From: Gryganskiella cystojenkinii
Taxonomy: Eukaryota; Mortierellomycota; Mortierellomycetes; Mortierellales; Mortierellaceae
Reading direction: 5' to 3'
DNA length: 30,622 bases
NCBI GenBank assembly: GCA_015852425.1
Contig: JAAAIG010000458.1
Coordinates: forward strand, 1-30,622
The translations under genes and the position numbers were made by a program. The notes beneath the pieces are model-generated. The model was not told where the DNA came from. It ran no database searches and was given only the letters and a program-made list of their open reading frames with translations. Shown piece by piece: positions 12,812-29,624 of the stretch; the first letter of the stretch is position 1; each line of letters begins with the position of its first letter.

Positions 12812-13354
12812 CTAGTTTGCCCAGCAGTTCGGGACACCTTCATCAATGCAATTTCTGGCAGTGGGCTCACCAACACATTGAGACTTAAACCAATCGATGC
12901 ATTCCGCGGTGTGTCGGCGAATATCGTCACCGCTCATGCCATCGTCGTTATACAAGATGTATCGGCCGTATCGGTTCCTACATCGGTAGGTGGTGTGGTC
13001 GTTGTTGTTCATGCAGCTGTCGAGGATGATGTCATCGCTCCAACTACCAACATTTGGCGCCTTCAATTCCATATAGAACGGGTTGCCCTTGGAGGCGTCG
13101 CACATACTGTCGTACCACGTGGAGACCTGCCAGTTGCCTTGCGTAAAAATCATCCATCCTGCACGCGAGTTTGTCGTGGATTGCTCTATGACAAGCTGGT
13201 TGTTGTCCCAGACACAAGCTGCTTCGACGTATCCTTCATCAGACTCCGTAACGGTGATACCTATCACAACCAACGTAGTTGCACTGGCCGAACGAATACT
13301 CTGCGCCAGTAGAGCAATAGCAACGAGGGGTGAAAGAGCCTTGAATCCAAACAT
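12812..13354 (-). CDS. Predicted secreted eight-cysteine protein, copy A
   Basis: A 180-residue protein from the ATG at 13354. An in-frame extension to 13534 exists but crosses a probable 5'UTR intron, and the extension does not match the paralogue. Residues 1-25 form a clear signal peptide (MFGFK, then a hydrophobic core LSPLVAIALLAQ, then ASA before Thr26). The mature part holds eight cysteines, in ACVWD, SMCDAS, DSCMNN, YRCRN, AECIDW, SQCVGE, RNCIDE and PNCWAN, which suggests four disulfides. It is about 75% identical to copy B by hand alignment, with all cysteines kept. I do not recognise the family and infer only secretion. A 5'UTR intron 13467..13371 (GTAAAC to CTATAG) is likely, since an equivalent exists in copy B. 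Upstream of ~13485 lies the 3' flank of copy B, so its promoter differs from that of B. Confidence 0.85.
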   Translation of the reverse strand: MFGFKALSPLVAIALLAQSIRSASATTLVVIGITVTESDEGYVEAACVWDNNQLVIEQSTTNSRAGWMIFTQGNWQVSTWYDSMCDASKGNPFYMELKAPNVGSWSDDIILDSCMNNNDHTTYRCRNRYGRYILYNDDGMSGDDIRRHTAECIDWFKSQCVGEPTARNCIDEGVPNCWAN

Positions 13355-13662
13355 CGTGTTAAATTTTTCACTATAGAGTGCAGGGGAAAAAAATGCCAGC
13401 GCAGGATATGGGTTAACGTCCGCAGGGATGAAGTATGTAGCGTACCGACAGCTGTGTTTGTGTTTACCTGAGAGTGTGGATTTAATAGAAAAGTTTGTGA
13501 AAAGTGGCCACAGGCCAGTTTCCTCCTTCTTCATCCCAACAACTTGTTAAGTCAAAATAGATGTTTCAAGCAAAAAGAACAACCGAGAAGCTATTTTTAT
13601 TACGAACTTTATCACGAATTTGAATTTTTGTGGACGGTGATATTGTACTGCATCTTTCGAGG

Positions 13663-14208
13663 CTAGGTTGCCCAGCAGTTCGAGACATTGTCACCAATGC
13701 AGTTTCTGGAGCCAGGCTCACCAATGCATTGAGATTTAAACCAATCGATGCATTCCGCAGTGTGTCTGATAATATCGGCGCCGCTCATGCCACCGTCATT
13801 ATACAAGATGTATCGGCCGTATCGGTTCATGCAACGGTAGAAGGACTGGTCGTTGTTGTTCATGCAGCTGTCGAGGATGATGTCATTGCTCCAGCTACCA
13901 GCATTCGCCGGCTTTACTTTCATGTAGAACGGGTTGCCCTTGGAGGCATCGCACATACTGCTCCTATATCCGGAGACTTGCCAGTTACCTTGCGTAAATG
14001 TCTCCCATCCCGAACTCGGATGTAACGTAGATTTCTGTATGACAAGCTGGTTGTTGTCCCAGACACAAGCTGCTTCGACGTGACCTCCCTCAAAGAACCC
14101 CGTACCGGCGATACCAATCACAACTAACGTGGTTGCGCTCGCGAAACGCATACTCTGAGCCAGTAGAGCAATAGCAACGAGGGGTGAAAGAGTCTTGAAA
14201 CCGAACAT
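13663..14208 (-). CDS. Predicted secreted eight-cysteine protein, copy B
   Basis: A 181-residue paralogue of the adjacent copy A, single coding exon. The signal peptide is nearly identical (LSPLVAIALLAQSMRFASA, cleavage expected before Thr26). The eight cysteines are in the same positions. Conserved blocks include CVWDNNQLVI, FTQGNWQVS, CDASKGNPFYM, DIILDSCMNNND and RYGRYILYND. Differences concentrate in residues 34-43, around residues 60-70 (STLHPSSGWET) and near the C-terminus (GDNVSN), which look like surface loops. A 5'UTR intron 14317..14225 (GTAAAT to CAATAG) is predicted. A TATAAAAG box at 14388..14381 fits a transcription start near 14355. The function is unknown; a small secreted, disulfide-rich, recently duplicated protein could act on other organisms or on the cell wall, but nothing in the sequence proves this. 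Confidence 0.88.
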   Translation of the reverse strand: MFGFKTLSPLVAIALLAQSMRFASATTLVVIGIAGTGFFEGGHVEAACVWDNNQLVIQKSTLHPSSGWETFTQGNWQVSGYRSSMCDASKGNPFYMKVKPANAGSWSNDIILDSCMNNNDQSFYRCMNRYGRYILYNDGGMSGADIIRHTAECIDWFKSQCIGEPGSRNCIGDNVSNCWAT

Positions 14209-14380
14209 CGTTTTAAATATTTCTCTATTGATATTAAAAAAAATGCAGATGCAGGATGTGTGTTAACGTCCACGGGGATCAAGCATATGGCTTATTGACA
14301 ACTGCGTTTGTATTTACCTGTGAGTGCGGATGGTGGAAGTGGAGAAGGATAAGGATCAAAAAGAGTGGGAAAAGCAGCGT

Positions 14381-15077: not shown

Positions 15078-15644
15078 TGTTTCGCGAACGGACACGCGGT
15101 TAAAGGGGTGAAAGCGAGGAATGAGGTAGTAATAAGAAGGCAGTATGTTTTATTTTGATTTGTGAACTTTATTTAGACTGAAGTTCTATGAAAACTATGA
15201 TGGTGGGCTTGTATAAGAAAGACAAGCGGTACAGCACAGATTATTGGTAAGAGTAGAGATATCATGACATGACATCGTCACTAGGACAAGAACAAAAGAG
15301 AACAAGATAGCAACGACAGAGAACAAGACAGAGCAAGATGGAGGAGGAGGAGTATCAAAAGGTTATGACTCGAAATAATAAATGGTGCTATGAGAAGACG
15401 ACATGACAAGAAGGCGATGGCGAAGACCACGAACAAAGAGATAGCGATGGAGCAGAGAGAAACAAAAGGAAAGAGATAACGAGTTACTCGAACAAGACAC
15501 CATTAAAAGGGATCAGAAGAACAAGGATTGGCGCAGAGGATGGGCTGAGACGATTATTCAGTGATTTCCGTTGGCGGACCTCTGAAACCAGAAAAGGAAA
15601 CCTAGGCGTGGACTTGGAGTGGGTTCTAGGCTGGGTTCGTGACA
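15078..15644 (-). mobile_element. Possible solo LTR of a retrotransposon (degenerate)
   Basis: The 567-bp segment begins TGTTTCGCGAAC and ends GGGTTCGTGACA on plus, so the outer ends are TG...CA with imperfect inverted termini (TGTCACGAACCC on minus). On minus, AATAAA-like signals occur near its 3' end (around 15155-15175) after a C/T-rich stretch, as expected for the R region of an LTR. The 5 bp on each side (GCAAT and ATCGT) do not match, so there is no target-site duplication, and no internal retrotransposon genes are nearby. This is a tentative call. Confidence 0.3.
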
Positions 15645-21128: not shown

Positions 21129-24100
21129 TTAGCTATCTGCGGATTTTCTGATCACTCTCAGAGATGGTACCCGAAGTAACAGTTTGGTCTCCATGCAATC
21201 GAGTGCCGACTTGTCATGGAGAAGAGGAGTTCCTGCGATGAACAGGTCCGTCAAAGACGCCAGCGCTACGTTGCAGATCCTTTCGCGATTGGCAGATGGG
21301 TAAGGTAGCTTCGTCCGGAGTAGATCCATCTGTTGTAGGCCAAAACTTGTGTCCTCGACATCCAGACATTGCAATGTGCTTTTGAAATCCAGCAGGTCCA
21401 GGAGGTACCCCCACTGTTTGTTGGAAAGAAAACAGTTTGTGATCTTGAGAGTTTGGAGGGGTGAGGTTGAGGGCAATCCTGTCTTTGAGATCAAGGACAG
21501 GATGCTGTCCATGGCGTTCTTGGTATCAACGTGGATTTTTCTTGGACCCCCAAACATAATCTCTAGGTGTCGGAGACCTGGAAGCCTGCCTCGATGTAGC
21601 GAGATGGCTTCGATCCATTCCAAGTTGCGCCCCTCGGCGTGAAGGATGAGTCTGCTCACTTGTCTACCGCTCGGCCGGTCACGAAAACCAAACATATCAA
21701 TGTAGTCGATGGCCTTGGCGCATGAACTGGTGTCTTGGAGGTGCGAAAATGAAAGTGTGAACTCACTTGATGCAGTGGAGTTATCGACAAGGGTTTGAAC
21801 GGATGCAATATCGGAAAGGTTGCAGGGATCGATTGCTAAATCTTCCAGGATTGACCCGTTGTCCTCTATCGATTTCGCGAGGGATCTCAGCATGGAATCG
21901 TCAAGGAGATGGTTGGTGGATAGTTTTAAGATAGACGAGCCATAGACTTGAAAAATTCTATCCAGGTGAACATTGCTGTTTTGTGTTCCAGTCATTTCTG
22001 AGTTGATTCTGATATCTTGAAGACCGGTCAGCTGAAACACAACAGTCATTTCGACTTTGTGTTCCGTTGGGAGAGAGCATAACCGAAGGACTCGTCTTAA
22101 CGACGAAGCTTGTCCACGGACCGATTCTACTACCATTTCGAATTCCTCTAATGCGACCCGGATATCGAGGACGTCCAACTGATCGCAGGCTTTGTCGAGA
22201 TATCTGAGCAAATCCTCCAATGAATCTCGTGAGTGCGAAGGCAAACAATCAAGTCGGACCGCTCTCAAGTGTGGACCCGTGGAACTCATGATAGGAGAAA
22301 GATCATGTTCAACACTTGCAGAAATCTCAACCGTGTGCGTGGGTTTGTCGTAATCATCTGTTGCCAAAGTCACAACTGCTTTAAAACCCGTGTCGACCAT
22401 CGTGACCTGTTGGAGGCGTTTCTGGCCCTCTCGGATTTGATCCGGTAAATCATCATCATATGCGCACTTGAGCGTCAGGTGCGTAAGGGCCGGACAGAGA
22501 GCGAGGAGGATCTTTAGTGAGGACAGATCACGGCTTGGAGTAAATGGAAGGTCGAGATCCAAATATGTTAATTGACATGTCTGATCCAGAGAGTTGTCGA
22601 CCATTCGACTAAAAAGGTCCTTGAATCCAACAAGTCGCATGCTTCGACATCTTTTGTTGGTCATGATCTTCATGATCAACCGACTGACACTAGATATTGA
22701 TCTCTCGAGGAGACTGCCGTCGAGAGTTACGTGTGGAATATTTGCCCCGCTAATGCCCTTTTGCAGCTTGCTCCAGGCATTTTTTTCGGAAACGTACGAT
22801 GAACCAAACCGGACCAGGACTTTCTTCACTCCCGGTACAAGGTAGAGAGCCTGGTAGAGTTCGTCCATGACCTTCTCATCATCTAAGAGTGTGAACTCAA
22901 GGAAGCCCTTTAAACGATCTAGAGAGCCGGGCTTTGCCATCCTTAGGACCACGGATTCCAAGGCATTCCACAAGGTCTTAGCTTTGGCGGACGGTCCAAC
23001 ATGGTCCTTACACACCCACTGCAATTCGCCGCTGTGATCTGAAAAAGTGATTTTCATGTTTCCGTAGATGCCGTTGGGGTCCACGCTCTGGAGAAACCGT
23101 GTAAATTCTTGATACTCGTACCCTTCAAGAGGCTCAGGTATGTCACTGATGCCATCATACAGAAGTCTGTTGTCCTCTAAGACCACTTTTGGAACTGTGG
23201 ATTTACAAAGATTAGCAACGAGATCCATCGCATTGCGATAAGGGTCACTAAAGCTCGGAGTGTTGTTATTCAAAAACGACTGAGTAATCGTGATCCAGCT
23301 GGTGATTTTAATGAGCGAACTCAACGGCGGGACGATGGCTCCCGCGGCGACGATCCCGATATGAAGGCAGGTCAATACCTTTAGCAGATAGGGGCCATAT
23401 TTTTTACAGAATTTTTTTGGGTCTGTCAGTTCGTAACCATGGTGGTTAGATAGGTGTGTGCTCGGGTTGTTGCTCAAAAGATGGTCATCGATACCACGGG
23501 GATCCTGTTGCCATGGTAAAGGCGCCATCTGATCAATTGAGGTAAGAGAGCCAGGTGAAGAGGAGCTTGAAATCGTAGACTCATGGATGCCACATTCGCA
23601 AAGAAGATGCAGCTGCAAGTGGTTGCGTATCGAAACCTTGAACTTCCGTTCCGAAACAGGGTGGAGCACACAAAACCTCCTTGGAACTGGGAAGAGCTGA
23701 ACCTGGAGACCTTTGAACGCGAGTTTTTGAGCGGTATCGTTTGCTGACCTATCCTCCAAGTCCCTAAACCGCTGCTGGATCGCCTTTTTCAGGAGCTCTA
23801 TCTCTTGAACATCGCCTCTCTCGTACTCTCTGGATAAAAGATGAAAAAGGTCGTCCGCATTTCTAATTGCCGCTTGAGTTGTCGTCATGGGCAGTGGTGG
23901 TGGCGGCGGTGGCAATGTGCTTTGTGGCAACCCCTTTTCTCGGAGTTTGACCTTAAAGGTGCCATCCCTGTGTTCGTAACAAGGCCAATTACCACTATAC
24001 AAGTAAATATCGAAAAAGGATCATCAGGTTATTTATTACCCTTGGATCTCTGTCGTCGTCAAGTACGCAGTCGTCTCCCTTTCGTTTCTTACCTGTCACA

Positions 24101-24460
24101 TCTCTTCAAGGGAAGCTGGTCAATGATGATATATTCCCCATCCATCTCGACCTCAATACATTGGATATTCCCGTCTAGAGCACCCTCGATAACTTCTTTG
24201 CGGACAATATGTCCGCCGAAGGTGTCGTCCCAGATTGCCAGGATTTTGTAATCGCTACCGTCAATTATCTTCTGGACTCGCTGGATTCGATCAACGATTC
24301 GTGCCTTCGTCTGTGAAGTGCGAGTGATTGGTATGTCCATAAAACTGGAAGATAAAAGGGAGGAAGAAGAGAAAGTAGAGGAAGGGAAGGAAGACGGCGA
24401 TGTAGAGAGATGAGTAGAGTAGGAGGAAGTAGACATGGAGGGCGAAGGTGAGGACATCAT
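21129..24460 (-). CDS. Large leucine-rich protein with a fungal-specific N-terminal module
   Basis: Two exons, 24460..24093 and 23994..21129, joined by a 98-bp GTAAGA-TATAG intron, give 1077 residues. Residues 1-40 are a Ser-rich disordered stretch. Residues ~55-145 form a compact module (KILAIWDDTFGG, GEYIIIDQLPLKRC, GTFKVKLREKG). A six-Pro run follows at 151-156. Residues ~220-350 contain VPRRFCVLHP, LHLLCECG (255-258) and GPYLLKVLTCLHIGIVAAGA, a pattern I recall from a large Mucoromycota family ('RLFVVLP...FLCECG...YGxYxLxLL...'). The C-terminal ~600 residues are irregular leucine-rich repeats (LTYLDLDLPF, LTHLTLKC, LQTLKITNCFLS, LQCLDVEDTSF). Family members are usually uncharacterised, so a sensing or scaffold role is only an inference. 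It is divergent from the Hsp70 fusion gene, with 560 bp between starts. Confidence 0.85.
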
Positions 24461-24540
24461 CGTATTAGCAAAACAGTGTCGATGATATTGTCTTGATCGC
24501 TTTGTAGGTTTGATGAGAGAAAGGAGCGCCAGAAAAAAAG

Positions 24541-24598
24541 CAAAGGCGGAAAGGCGGAAACGGTGGAAAGGTGGAAACGGTGGAAAGGCGGAAACGAA
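24541..24598. repeat. Short tandem repeats (GGYGGAAAC/GGYGGAAA)
   Basis: About six copies of an 8-9 base G/A-rich unit, alternating GGCGGAAA, GGCGGAAAC, GGTGGAAA and GGTGGAAAC. It lies 80-140 bp upstream of the leucine-rich gene start, within its presumed leader or promoter. Confidence 0.75.
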
Positions 24599-24715
24599 TC
24601 ACCTCCAAAAAAAACTCCCCATCGTTGATGTGAGCTTGGAAAACGAACAAAAACTTGCTCACAAAAATTTTGTGACCATCTTCGCCTTCGAATGTTCACT
24701 TCGCCTTTCGAAACT

Positions 24716-24958
24716 CTAACTTCGCCTTTCGTTTGTGACCAGAAAATCAAGGAAAGTGGGGGCAATTGAGGGCGTATCTTCATTGTATGCTTGATATCTA
24801 TTTTGTTCTATTCTCTCCTTCTCCCTTTTCTCGTCCAGCAATTCCAAAATTTTCTCTGCCGCCTCCGCCAGACAGTCATCCATATCTGACCAAGTTGCGA
24901 CAGCTAGACACTTCTCAGAGGGCAGCCAGCACCACGCCAAGTATTGTCTAAAAAGCAA
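24716..24958 (-). CDS. Possible small gene or exon remnant (80 codons)
   Basis: An 80-codon frame inside the divergent promoter. The peptide is more protein-like than the surrounding noncoding frames. It begins QYLAWCWLPSEKCLAVATWS and continues with an amphipathic acidic/basic helix (EAAEKILELLDEKREKERIE). No family is recognised. It could be a relic exon of the leucine-rich gene family, a small protein, or chance. A C/T-rich plus-strand stretch accounts for part of the helix composition. Confidence 0.25.
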   Translation of the reverse strand: MLFRQYLAWCWLPSEKCLAVATWSDMDDCLAEAAEKILELLDEKREKERIEQNRYQAYNEDTPSIAPTFLDFLVTNERRS

Positions 24959-25020
24959 TATAGATTCCTTGTATTTTCCATTCCAAGCTCCTCTCTTTTA
25001 CCCGACTTCTACCGACTGCG

Positions 25021-28000
25021 ATGCCCTTAGCCTACGATGACTTTCCGGTCGTTGTCTCCATTGACTTCGGGGCTAGTTTCTCGTAAGTTGGCGTTCTTTG
25101 AGCCTACTTTGCTGTGCAAACAATTGATTCTCTCAGCTCCTTACACAGCGTCTGTTTTCGAATGACAATATCGTAGAGGATGTGCGTATAGTTACATTCC
25201 AGATGGCAAGGTGCCCAAGTTGATCGCGGATTGGTAAGAGTCCTGACTTCAGTAGCCCGTAGAACTTCTCAAGGGAGACACATCTATCTTTCTCTCTCGG
25301 TCATTCTATTTACATGTTCCAAAAAAAACCCTCAAATCTATAGGCCAAATCAAAACATGTACTACTCCAAGACTCCTACCATCAATCTATACAACGGAAA
25401 CAAGAAAAACCATAGGATGGTTGAGTGGGGTTGGAATGCGAGACACAAGGGGATACCAGAGAACATCCAGCTCCAAAACTACAAGCCTTATCTCGACGAA
25501 AACCTTGAACTGCCGCCTTGGACAGGACCGATTTCTATCGTCGACGCCATCTCAGATTACATTGGCGCCCTCCATGAGTATGCTGCAGGAAAAATTGAAG
25601 AGGAACTTGGGCAGAGAATGACGCGCGAAAAATTTCGTTATTGCCTTACAGTGCCTGCCATGTGGTCGGATAGAGTCAAGAATACCATGAGGCAGGCAGC
25701 CATCAAAGCCAAACTTATTACAGCATATGACGACCCTGATCGTTTGATGCTGGTATCAGAACACGAAGCAGCGGCCTTGTACTGCGTAAAGTCATGCAGG
25801 GAGTATGATATAAAGCCTGGTGACAGGTTCTTGATCTGTGATGCGGGTGGCAGCACGGTCGATCTTATTGTATATGACGTTGCCGAAGGCCGAATGTTAT
25901 CCGAAGTCTGTAAGGGTCATGGCGTTACTTGTGGCTCGATGCTCATCGATAGAAACTTCGGTAATCTTTTGATTGGAAAGTTTGGAAGTCAGGGCGCCAA
26001 AATCCAACCCGAACTCGTGTCTGACTTGGTCGAGAAGTTCGCGTATGAGCTCAAGCCCCGTTTCGACGGTGTTCAGGAACTTTTTCTTGGTCTTCCATGG
26101 AATTCGTTCTTTTCAAACCTTAAGGACCCAGGCACCATTGGCATTGACGATGGCAGGATGCATTTCACGGCATCCGAGTTGAAGAGTGTTGTCTTCGATC
26201 CAGTCGTGGGACAAGTTTTAGGACAGATTCAGAGACAGCTTGACGAGGCTAAGGACTGTTCATCAATCTTTATGGTTGGTGGGTTTGGATCCTCAGCCTA
26301 TCTACTGAATCGTGTTAAACAGGAGTTTGGCGCCAAGGTCAAGACCATATCGGCACCAGACAGACCCGAGATTGCAGTTGTCTGTGGAGCAATATATGCT
26401 GCAACGGACCACTTGCTAGAGACTAGCATCCACTTGGCTGAAAACGCAGGTGAAACATTTCCAGCATCTCGATCTGCTGTTCACTCGGAGCTAGACAGCC
26501 AGTCTATAGTACAAGAACACATGAATAGCGGTTCTGTACTGCCTCCACTCAAGACGCTGAAGGATTGGTTCAATGCCGTGGATACTGATGGGAATGGTAC
26601 ACTTTCAGCTGAGGAACTTCAGAGGACTTTGATGAACGGAGACTGGACCCCTTTCAGTAGTAAGTTTCGAATCCAGATGCATTCTGTGCTGCTGTGGCAT
26701 TTTCGCTGCAAAAAAAAAAGACCAGGAAAGTAACATCTCCTCTCTCATTCTCTCTTTCCCTCCTTTTCCGTTACTTTTGTCTATGGAAAATGAATAGTGG
26801 AAGCTGTTCGGATGATGATCACCATGTTTGACAGGAGTGGTAATGGGTAATGTATTGAACACAAGGAAAGGACTGGCGGACAGGGAGAAAAAGACGAAAC
26901 CTGCTGCATCACCGTGCCTAACCCTGCAACTTTTGATTGAACTACTACTTTCCTCAAACACAGGTCCATCTCCTTCAACGAGTTCATAGGCTTATGGAAT
27001 TATATTGAGAAATGGAAGGCCTGCTTCCAGACCTTCGATCTCGATCGATCCGGAACCATCGACACCGAGGATTTCCATACGGCACTTAAAGGGTTTGGAT
27101 TCAATCTCTCACCTACTTCAGTGAACCTGATCGCCAAAAAGTATGATGCCCGGGGTCGGGGCAATATTACGTTTGATAACTTTGTTCAGGGTTGTGTCAC
27201 AGTTCTGAACCTGACGGAAACTTTCCGCCGAATGGATCATTCCGGGACAGGCGTCGTGACCATGTCGTATGAACAGGTAAAATCGAAGGACTGTGGCTTA
27301 GAACAACAATTAAGTGTGCGTCCCAGACCTGCTGTTAACCTGAATATTCTGCTTGGTCATCTAGTTCCTTAGTGTTGTACTCAAGGATGAAGATCGCCAT
27401 GTCACGTCTTCAGTGGCACAGGCGCTTGGCAAGCAGTCTTCATTATCAGAATCAGCTATCCAGTCCCTCATTGCTGCACTCAAGGATGAAGATGAAAATA
27501 TCAGGTCTTCAGCAGCACAGGCGCTTGGCAAGCAGTCTTCATTATCAGAATCAGCTATCCAGTCCCTCATTGCTGCACTCAAGGATGAAGATGAAAATAT
27601 CAGGTTTTCAGCAGCACAGGCGCTTGGCAAGCAGTCTTCATTATCAGAATCAGCTATCCAGTCCCTCATTGCTGCACTCGAGGATGAAGATCGCAATGTC
27701 AGGTATTCAGCAGCACAGGCGCTTGGCAAGCAGTCTTTACTATCAGAATCAGCTATCCAGTCCCTCATTGCTGCACTCAAGGATGAAGATGAAGATATCA
27801 GGTTTTCAGCAGCACAGGCACTTGGCAAGCAGTCTTCACTATCAGAATCAGCCATTCAGTCCCTCATTGCTGCACTCAAGGATGAAGATCGCAATGTCAG
27901 GTCTTCAGCAGCACAGGCACTTGGCAAGCAGTCTTCACTATCAGAATCAACTATCCAGGCCCTCATTGCTGCACTCAAGGATGAAGATGAAGATGTCGGG

Positions 28001-29459
28001 TCTTCAGCAGCGTCAGCATTGGGCAGTCAGTCTACACTGCCAGAATCAGCCATTCAGTCCCTCATTGCTGCACTCAAGGATGAAGATCGCAATGTCAGGT
28101 CTTTAGTAGCGCAGGTGCTAAACGAGCAGTCTTCACTATCAGAGTCAGCTATCCAGGCCCTCATTGCTGCACTCAAGGATGACGATGAAGATGTCAGGTC
28201 TTTAGCAGCACAGGCGCTAGGCAAGCAGTCTACATTGTCGGAGCCAGCCATTCAATCCCTCATAGCTGCACTCAAGGATGATAACCGCAATGTCCGGTCT
28301 TCAGCAGCTTCTGCATTAGGCAATCAGTCTATATTGCCACAATCTGCTATCAATGACTTGGAAGTAGTTTTATCACATGTGGTCTTGAAACCCCTCATGG
28401 ATGATACACTGGTGTCTACCAATGTCACTGATATCACAGATGTTCCTCTACCCAACCCAATGCTCACAAACGCAGATGAAACATTACCAGAACCTCGATT
28501 GGCTTTTCATTCAGAACGTGAGATCCCACTCCTAACTTCAGACTCGGAAAAAGTTTCATCACATGTCCTTTCGAAACCCTTCGTGGACAATGAGCTTGTG
28601 TCTACCACTGTTGTAGATATCCCGGACATTCTCCTACCTAATCCGATGTTTACAAACATGGATGAAACATTACCAGCACCTCGATTGGCTTTTCACCTGG
28701 AACGCGAGATCTCACTCCAACGTTCTGACTTGGAAGAGGGTTCATCACATGAGGTCTTGAAACCCTTCGCAGACAGTATGCTGATGTCCACCAATGATAT
28801 TGATGGCACAGACACTACCATTGCACACAGTACAGATGACTCTACTACCAGTAAACGACCAGCACCTGTTCAGGTTTTCAGCCTATTTAGCACAGACAAG
28901 GAAAAGCTGGGGACAATCGACATGCAGTCCCAACCTGATGATTCAACAGGGAAGGATGTCATACTCTGGAGTCACATTCTGGACCGATGTCCGAACGCGG
29001 TCTATCTCAAGGACCGTGAAAGGAAAGTAGTCGAGTTCCTTCAAGATTCTTTCCAGGAAGAGTAAGTGCAAAGAAAAAGGTTATACAGAAATAGTGAGAA
29101 CTCCAATTTTTTTTGCTGCTACCAGACCAATCACTAACAGCTTCTGCAGACTGCTTCCTCTGCGCATCGAGTGCAAGGACGAACCCTTGAATCTCATAGT
29201 GTACTGTCGAAAAACGGACGGCGAAGCAGATGGCGAATTCGAAGCGCTTCCAGTCAGTCAAGGTGTCAGGATCCAGCCTCTAAGGCAACCAACAGATGGG
29301 ATCCGGCAACGAAGACAGTTCAATAAAGCCGTCTACCAAGCGCAACATAGACAAATAGTCGCGCGGGAATTAACAGCCACCATCACCAACAGCTCTTCGT
29401 CATATAAGGATGCTCCCAACGACGCAATAGTTGGGTATGATCTGAACTTCAGATATTAA
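25021..29459 (+). CDS. Hsp70 (HSPA12-type) / penta-EF-hand / HEAT-repeat fusion protein
   Basis: Seven exons with consistent phases: 25021..25082, 25177..25233, 25344..26659, 26798..26846, 26964..27276, 27365..29061 and 29150..29459; 1267 residues. Residues ~8-415 are an Hsp70-fold ATPase of the HSPA12 type: phosphate-1 loop DFGASFSG (15-22), phosphate-2 CDAGGSTVDL (Asp206) and adenosine motif MVGGFGSSAYL (350-360). No Hsp70 substrate-binding domain follows. Residues ~442-604 are a penta-EF-hand domain: loop 1 DTDGNGTLSAEE and loop 2 DRSGNGSISFNE are canonical, loop 3 DLDRSGTIDTED has Asp at position 12, and loops 4 and 5 are degenerate as in ALG-2. Residues 600-935 are HEAT repeats, nine full 33-residue copies. 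Residues 936-1060 hold 62-residue repeats. Residues ~1128-1267 form a Mortierella-type module (VILWSHILDRCPNAVYLKD). Biological role unknown; calcium-regulated ATP-dependent sensing is my inference. Confidence 0.88.
27365..28372 (+). repeat. Near-identical 99-bp coding repeats (HEAT array)
   Basis: Nine full and two partial copies of a 99-bp unit encoding SAIQSLIAALKDEDENIRSS plus AAQALGKQSSLSE. The first copies are nearly identical even at synonymous sites; copies 1 and 2 differ at one base by eye. The unit matches PBS-lyase-like HEAT repeats (two helices, LIAALKD and AAQALG). The last copies (6-9) are more diverged. Confidence 0.95.
28373..28790 (+). repeat. 186-bp coding repeat, two full copies and one partial copy
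   Basis: Starts at 28373, 28559 and 28745, an exact 186-bp (62-codon) period. Shared protein blocks include KP, D..LVST, LPNPM, ADETLPEPRLAFH and its counterpart MDETLPAPRLAFH, EREI. It directly follows the HEAT array in the same exon. No structure is recognised, and it is likely an extended Pro/Ser/Thr-containing linker. Confidence 0.85.
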
Positions 29460-29605: not shown

Positions 29606-29624
29606 AATAAAATACTTCAATAAA
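29606..29624 (+). terminator. Likely polyadenylation signals of the Hsp70 fusion gene
   Basis: Two AATAAA hexamers (29606-29611 and 29619-29624) about 150-165 bp after the stop codon. Convergent transcription from the kinase fragment ends at 29685, leaving about 60 bp between the last signal and that stop. Confidence 0.45.

Follow-up and report, generated by a model that had tools for sequence, protein, structure and literature searches.

A seven-exon gene of Gryganskiella cystojenkinii predicted to encode an Hsp70-type ATPase, a penta-EF-hand domain and a HEAT-repeat array in a single protein

Contig JAAAIG010000458.1 of the fungus Gryganskiella cystojenkinii, analysed over its full length of 30,622 nucleotides (the window; contig C506 among the contigs of this genome), carries at 25021-29459 what is very probably a single fusion gene, whose seven exons join into one open frame of 1267 codons (1267 amino acids). 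From the N- to the C-terminus, the predicted product comprises an Hsp70-type ATPase domain, a copy of a linker sequence, a penta-EF-hand (PEF) domain of the ALG-2/peflin type, an array of HEAT repeats, a set of linker repeats and a domain designated TD; at sequence level it is a chimeric intracellular protein built of exon-bearing modules. We put at about even the chances that this protein is an NLR-like receptor forming one half of a gene pair. A preliminary description of this DNA had proposed the fused gene, and its coordinates, the junctions 26659/26798, 26846/26964 and 27276/27365, the end at 29459, the product length and the domain order were all recovered here; TD, the linker repeats and a neighbouring gene arranged head-to-head were absent from that description.

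All features of the gene lie on the plus strand. Exon 1 (25021-25082) encodes the first phosphate loop of the Hsp70 fold (IDFGASFS) and is followed by exon 2 (25177-25233), as in the Hsp70 paralog of contig C687, with which the intron agrees in position and phase. Exon 3 (25344-26659) holds the remainder of the ATPase domain, the linker copy and EF-hand 1 (EF1); exon 4 (26798-26846) begins EF-hand 2 and has the same length, 49 bases, as an exon of the free PEF gene on contig C419; and exon 5 (26964-27276) runs from the remaining EF-hand 2 through EF-hand 5 (EF5). The end of the PEF helix, the HEAT array, the linker repeats and the first part of TD are encoded by exon 6 (27365-29061), and the second part of TD and the stop codon by exon 7 (29150-29459), downstream of which are two AATAAA signals (29606-29624). 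The motifs CDAGGSTVDL and MVGGFGSSAYL share exon 3 with EF1, as initially described, but DFGASFSG, which had been placed in the same exon, is interrupted by intron 1 (25082/25177).

Each of the six introns has a counterpart, at the same position and in the same phase, among the predicted introns of single-domain relatives in the same genome, a comparison resting on predicted gene models for the window gene and its relatives alike: the Hsp70 paralog of C687 has introns 1 and 2, the free PEF gene on C419 has introns 3 to 5, and the TD genes on contigs C91 and C418 have intron 6. A stop codon at 27362 closes the reading frame of the HEAT exon, and no ATG occurs in this frame until 28397, past the array; with no start codon before or within the repeats, the exon needs those upstream of it. 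Furthermore, a copy of the linker between the Hsp70 and PEF parts (26442-26489) is found past the HEAT array (28468-28515; 81% DNA identity, E 2e-7). The alternative of two separate genes was rejected on the HEAT exon devoid of an ATG and on the shared introns. Searches of the same genome (35 Mb in 1050 contigs, as in all self-genome searches reported here) with the Hsp70, PEF, HEAT and tail parts, a neighbouring gene of the family that we label CECG and a helicase open reading frame (ORF) as queries found no near-identical second copy of the locus.

Among the explanations that compete with a receptor role, an assembly error joining two loci within the HEAT repeats ranks last and appears very improbable. 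HEAT arrays do break the assembly, since those of contigs C872 and C1002 are truncated where the contigs end, and among the window units, unit 10 is slightly closer to another array than to its own (70 versus 68 of 99 nucleotides) and unit 7 about equally close to both (84 versus 85). Nevertheless, the signature AQALG/AQVLN occurs in eight of the ten window units (1-6, 8 and 9) but in none of the 86 units compared from five other arrays; any join falling between units 1 and 9 would thus be flanked by it, which makes a join inside the repeats unlikely. The sequence of the linker preceding the PEF part also recurs past the HEAT array, and a genome search with the tail matched its linker part to no other contig; a contig chimera was rejected on these observations. 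The linker repeats behind the array (28370-28804, or from 28355 in the flank comparison) have a period of 186 bp (62 amino acids), with two copies and a partial third. Copies of the linker sequence flank the PEF and HEAT parts, an arrangement that would fit the insertion of both into a linker with repeats that joined Hsp70 to TD.

The HEAT array (27380-28369; residues 605-934) consists of 10 units of 33 amino acids (99 bp) belonging to the unit family of NACHT-HEAT genes, with a Pfam HEAT_2 match of E 3.2e-81 for the window protein. Modelled alone from a single sequence with AlphaFold2, the array reached a predicted local distance difference test score (pLDDT) of 92.4, and its Foldseek matches were designed alphaRep proteins and other solenoids, identifying it as a two-helix repeat solenoid; several of the top matches placed the HEAT unit at 40-46% identity to alphaRep, and the sequence matched an alphaRep fusion with E 7.9e-78. 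In arrays elsewhere in the genome, the best counterparts of the window units were alike at 70-87 of 99 nucleotides. The large NACHT-HEAT genes of this genome lie on contigs C654, C492, C631, C358 and C1002. The C654 gene, with 30 recognised HEAT units, matched Pfam NACHT at E 3.7e-20 (the only one of the five that was scanned), and the same Walker-A motif is visible by eye in the other four; the array of C872 is cut by the contig end before any NACHT-like domain. As stated in an excerpt of PMC12258605 (this and the other papers cited here are drawn on through excerpts), the N type of NACHT occurs in fungi only with HEAT, and 26 such NLRs are present in Entomortierella parvispora.

The positions randomised for binding in alphaRep (18, 19, 22, 23, 26 and 30; PMC3754942, excerpt) aligned with columns 6, 7, 10, 11, 14 and 18 of the HEAT unit, and the window array varies at the same six positions as the designed binders, from which it differs in being natural, in its 33-residue unit (31 in alphaRep) and in being part of a larger protein. 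In these columns the window array shows nonsynonymous change with synonymous change at or near zero, whereas synonymous change is found in several of the conserved columns. Random sets of non-anchor columns reached the mean entropy of the six in 0.0083 of draws for the window array and in 0.015 (C654), 0.0072 (C872), 0.0002 (C492) and 0.0001 (C1002) of draws for other arrays, and of 32 slid registers none reached the entropy of the set, except one in C631. The unit finder required 7 of 8 anchor positions to match, which excluded diverged units, and the column, entropy and signature comparisons did not include the array of C358 (four regular units, identity 0.43). Because the six columns were picked after the variable columns of the window had been seen, the window test is partly post hoc and the other arrays, four of five of which were positive, constitute the fairer one. 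Given this agreement between variable columns and alphaRep positions in four of five arrays, the NACHT-HEAT family may be a natural repertoire of binders.

The Hsp70-type nucleotide-binding domain (25048-26427 including introns; residues about 10-401) was matched by the NCBIfam model HscA (E 4.2e-6, residues 10-394), significantly yet far below the curated cut-off of the model. Pfam HSP70 matched neither the 1267-residue product nor its Hsp70 part, so that the domain search proposed at the outset returned the EF-hands and HEAT through Pfam but Hsp70 only through HscA. The domain was linked to Hsp70 by its similarity to paralogs in the same genome, at 46-53% identity on seven contigs and 30-31% on two, among which that of C287 matched Pfam HSP70 (E 1.2e-7). 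A PDB profile search with the Hsp70 alignment gave no matches at E 0.01, and an AlphaFold2 model of exon 3 computed without an alignment (pLDDT 34.6) was not used. HSPA12, to which the domain had been likened, has homologs restricted to vertebrates among the genomes surveyed in PMC2266713 (excerpt).

The likeness to the Hsp70 paralogs stops near residue 401, where four of the five paralogs aligned (C687, C581, C287 and C552) extend beyond the ATPase domain by a conserved segment some 100-150 residues long; in the fifth, C714, the exon stops where the ATPase domain ends. The predicted window protein is without this C-terminal segment, which may be a substrate-binding domain. Because paralog similarity ends at this point, the PEF and HEAT parts stand in place of the C-terminal segment, as had been proposed. 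Hsp70-13 (PMC12692333) and a bacterial-conflict HSP70 described as "sans its peptide-binding domain" (PMC7159879), both from excerpts, likewise have the ATPase domain without a substrate-binding domain; in contrast to these, the window domain forms a single chain with PEF and HEAT and has altered motifs. The Hsp70 signature motifs DxGTT, EPxAA, GGxT and LxGG (PMC12692333, excerpt) read DFGAS, EHEAA, GGST and MVGG in the window protein, in which GGxT is present and the other three are altered, as opposed to DFGTT, EPEAA, GGGT and LVGG in C687, which has all four. EPEAA and GGGT are retained in C581, C287 and C552 as well, and C714 also deviates (TEAEAA, GGLT).

The PEF domain (26527-27379 including introns; residues 435-604) aligned in a PDB sequence search with PDCD6/ALG-2 (E 4e-47), with five EF-hands over the whole domain; the Pfam EF-hands of the product begin at residue 444. 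The EF1 loop, DTDGNGTLSAEE, has every ligand present and is canonical. The helix of EF5, whose sequence is retained, passes directly into HEAT unit 1, which bears out the direct joining of the last PEF segment to the first repeat noticed earlier. The C419 protein ends 11 residues past its last intron, the same intron that marks the PEF/HEAT junction in the window. Known PEF proteins end near EF5. The window protein shares the full five-EF-hand domain with ALG-2/PDCD6, peflin and fungal Pef1 and the exon structure with the free gene of C419, but differs in that its PEF part continues into other domains and in the residue at position 12 of EF-hand 3 (EF3). The PEF parts of the window and C419 genes are identical at 133 of 165 residues, with nonsynonymous (dN) and synonymous (dS) divergence of 0.089 and 1.26 (NG86) or 0.10 and 0.82 (YN00). 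The PEF copy is old, and therefore the fusion or its precursor is expected in related species.

These features of the PEF part would also suit the strongest of the competing explanations, one that we nonetheless regard as unlikely, in which the product is a calcium-responsive co-chaperone or membrane-repair scaffold: PEF would bring it to damaged membrane, HEAT would bind clients and the Hsp70 part would handle them, the HEAT array being merely borrowed and the protein having no immune role. According to an excerpt of PMC13232526, a part in responding to membrane disruption is common to every fungal PEF protein examined to date, and both the canonical EF1 and the extent of identity to the free gene agree with such a function. 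It is less easily reconciled with the altered ATPase motifs and the loss of the C-terminal, substrate-side segment found in the Hsp70 paralogs, or with the finding of both HEAT and TD in NLR-type genes of the same genome.

TD (28868-29248, split by intron 6) spans about 130 residues and has relatives at E 0.01 or better on contigs C91, C418 and C790; a Pfam scan of the tail part gave no match. On C91 (3-820, minus strand), a single ORF combines the second half of TD with the domain found at the N-terminus of the NACHT-HEAT genes (51% to C654, E 1.9e-15), and this ORF runs into the contig end. Judging by the neighbouring ORFs, TD begins CECG-family genes on C418 and C790. In the window, the gene head-to-head with the fusion gene (21129-24460, minus strand) belongs to this CECG family; it appears LRR-like by eye, and a Pfam scan of its 963-residue main ORF gave no match. 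With its start codon taken as the first in-frame ATG, the divergent intergenic region (24461-25020) measures 560 bp and may contain a shared promoter. A minisatellite with a 17-bp unit (24548-24596) lies in this region near the start of the neighbour and could act in shared regulation. A divergently transcribed CECG-family neighbour was found at all four TD loci, with start codons, chosen by eye, about 460-590 bp apart. Among the 35 matches listed, the two closest relatives of the window neighbour were the neighbours at C91 and C418 (426 and 408 bits), followed by one at 70 bits. A comparison of TD with the N-terminus of the partner gene gave an hhalign probability of 17%.

The preliminary description had left a choice between receptor and scaffold; because its HEAT units are related to those of NACHT-HEAT genes, the receptor is favoured, with a mechanism that can be sketched as follows. 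The HEAT surface would bind a ligand or client, PEF would dimerise the protein and tie it to calcium or damaged membrane, and the degenerate Hsp70 fold would serve as a nucleotide-held switch or scaffold where NLRs have NACHT, leaving TD to signal by coupling the protein to partners, possibly to the product of the head-to-head gene. This exact division of labour is tentative, and probably wrong in some of its parts. For bacterial conflict systems, an analogy between HSP70 systems and STAND NTPases has been proposed (PMC7159879, excerpt). Relative to the fungal NACHT-HEAT NLRs (PMC12258605, excerpt), the window protein has the same HEAT unit family and largely the same variable columns, and shares TD with the NLR-like ORF of C91; it differs in having Hsp70 and PEF and no NACHT, in its internal HEAT array and in its C-terminal rather than N-terminal TD. 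No NACHT or NB-ARC, the domain that defines NLRs, was among the 25 Pfam families listed for the 1267 residues, and none was found for the Hsp70 or tail parts alone. The sensor-repeat feature of NLRs is represented by HEAT units common to NACHT-HEAT genes, though they are not C-terminal here, and the head-to-head layout with a short intergenic region is that of paired receptors. A gene in which the defining domain of NLRs was not seen, which departs from standard Hsp70s in its motifs and C-terminal part, and which has the five EF-hands of PEF and the solenoid repeats of HEAT, would be an addition to the fungal repertoire of NLR-like receptors.

Plants are known to have NLR genes paired head-to-head that carry an added decoy domain (PMC9528088, excerpt). 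As in those plant pairs, the two window genes are head-to-head a few hundred bp apart and the added domain also exists as a free host protein; in contrast to them, the window gene is without NB-ARC or NACHT, its pairing is known from gene order and it has no known effector. A more specific and rather doubtful version of the receptor hypothesis can be framed on this likeness: a paired fungal immune receptor in which the Hsp70 fold replaces NACHT and PEF is an integrated decoy, copied from the cell's own membrane-damage sensor into a protein whose HEAT surface for recognition is of the NLR type. An attack on PEF, or its loading with calcium, would then signify danger, and TD would relay the signal to the product of the head-to-head gene. 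To our knowledge, no integrated decoy has been described outside plants; should the receptor role hold, the window gene would provide a candidate. Were the receptor role correct, the nucleotide switch of NLR-like proteins would be replaceable by an unrelated ATPase fold, and such fungi would build receptors from modules missed by searches led by NACHT and NB-ARC; the binding partners of HEAT repeats in fungal NLRs would become open to testing.

Several observations weigh against the receptor role or parts of its mechanism. The Hsp70 motif changes GTT>GAS, GGGT>GGST and EPEAA>EHEAA speak against firm ATP gating and may indicate a non-functional domain; the earlier term "ATP-gated" is weakened accordingly, in that ATP could still be bound, but the domain cannot be presumed to run a functional ATPase cycle. 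"Calcium-gated" has also lost ground, despite the canonical EF1. The calcium sites of ALG-2 are EF1 and EF3, and its E47A/E114A variant abolishes the calcium-induced change (PMC5037681, excerpt); in the EF3 loop of the window protein, DLDRSGTIDTED, position 12 is D, as opposed to E in both ALG-2 and C419. Calcium sensing by this PEF domain is plausible, though probably altered. In the array, the mean dN/dS between units is 0.45, which argues against overall positive selection, and the mean pairwise identity of the nine regular units, 0.78, falls short of the 85% threshold of PMC4986451, which in excerpt reports fungal NLRs to be enriched for internally conserved repeats. Columns outside the set of six are equally variable (nonsynonymous differences per pair of 0.64 at column 21, 0.51 at 29 and 0.47 at 8), other arrays show synonymous change inside the set too, and the C631 array has no column bias (0.19 of draws). 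TD is without a known fold, a PDB search having returned nothing below E 0.69, and the four TD loci are not independent cases, since they are probably copies of one ancestral pair. Finally, with C1023 used to polarise 120 codons of EF-hands 2 to 5, the window branch carries 17 nonsynonymous and 18 synonymous changes, compared to 6 and 19 on the C419 branch (Fisher p 0.065), so that PEF would be constrained overall and perhaps relaxed in the window gene.

That higher nonsynonymous share, the altered Hsp70 motifs and the Hsp70 relic of contig C418, which demonstrates that shuffling can leave debris, are also compatible with the protein being a non-functional product of shuffling, a chimera in decay whether transcribed or silent. 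This possibility appears improbable, ranking between the co-chaperone or scaffold and the assembly error, given 1267 codons open across seven exons, synonymous change located in the conserved HEAT columns, and PEF divergence from C419 with dS 0.8-1.3 and dN 0.09-0.10, part of which may have elapsed in a free gene before the fusion.

Searches with the individual parts returned 13 further matches on nine other contigs for the Hsp70 half, 11 on five for PEF, 21 on six for the HEAT array and three on three for the tail. Overlapping loci carrying a part numbered 54, of which the eight from the window hold several parts and the other 46 one each, with co-occurrence judged over 1.5 kb or as far as the end of the contig. 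On C418, the Hsp70 relic and a TD gene lie about 2 kb apart on opposite strands; the relic (15139-15288, plus strand) is a fragment 50% identical to the window domain and antisense within a long minus-strand ORF of the CECG type. The architecture combining Hsp70, PEF and HEAT was not found described among the matches listed from the open-licence literature (titles and abstract openings), and scans of prokaryote and viral contigs confirmed no relative, though none was expected there.

Matches to Hsp70-like and PEF sequences fall in pairs of contigs (C687/C581, C287/C699, C552/C962, C714/C693 and C361/C745) that are alike in score and layout, as after a large duplication. The C687 and C581 sequences have 435 of 480 residues in common, with dS of 1.0-1.4, and no such paired partner contig was found for the window gene. 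Elsewhere in the window, at 12812-13546 and 13663-14262 on the minus strand, two similar small ORFs lie in tandem which, by eye, have signal-peptide-like starts and several cysteines, and are probably duplicated secreted proteins.

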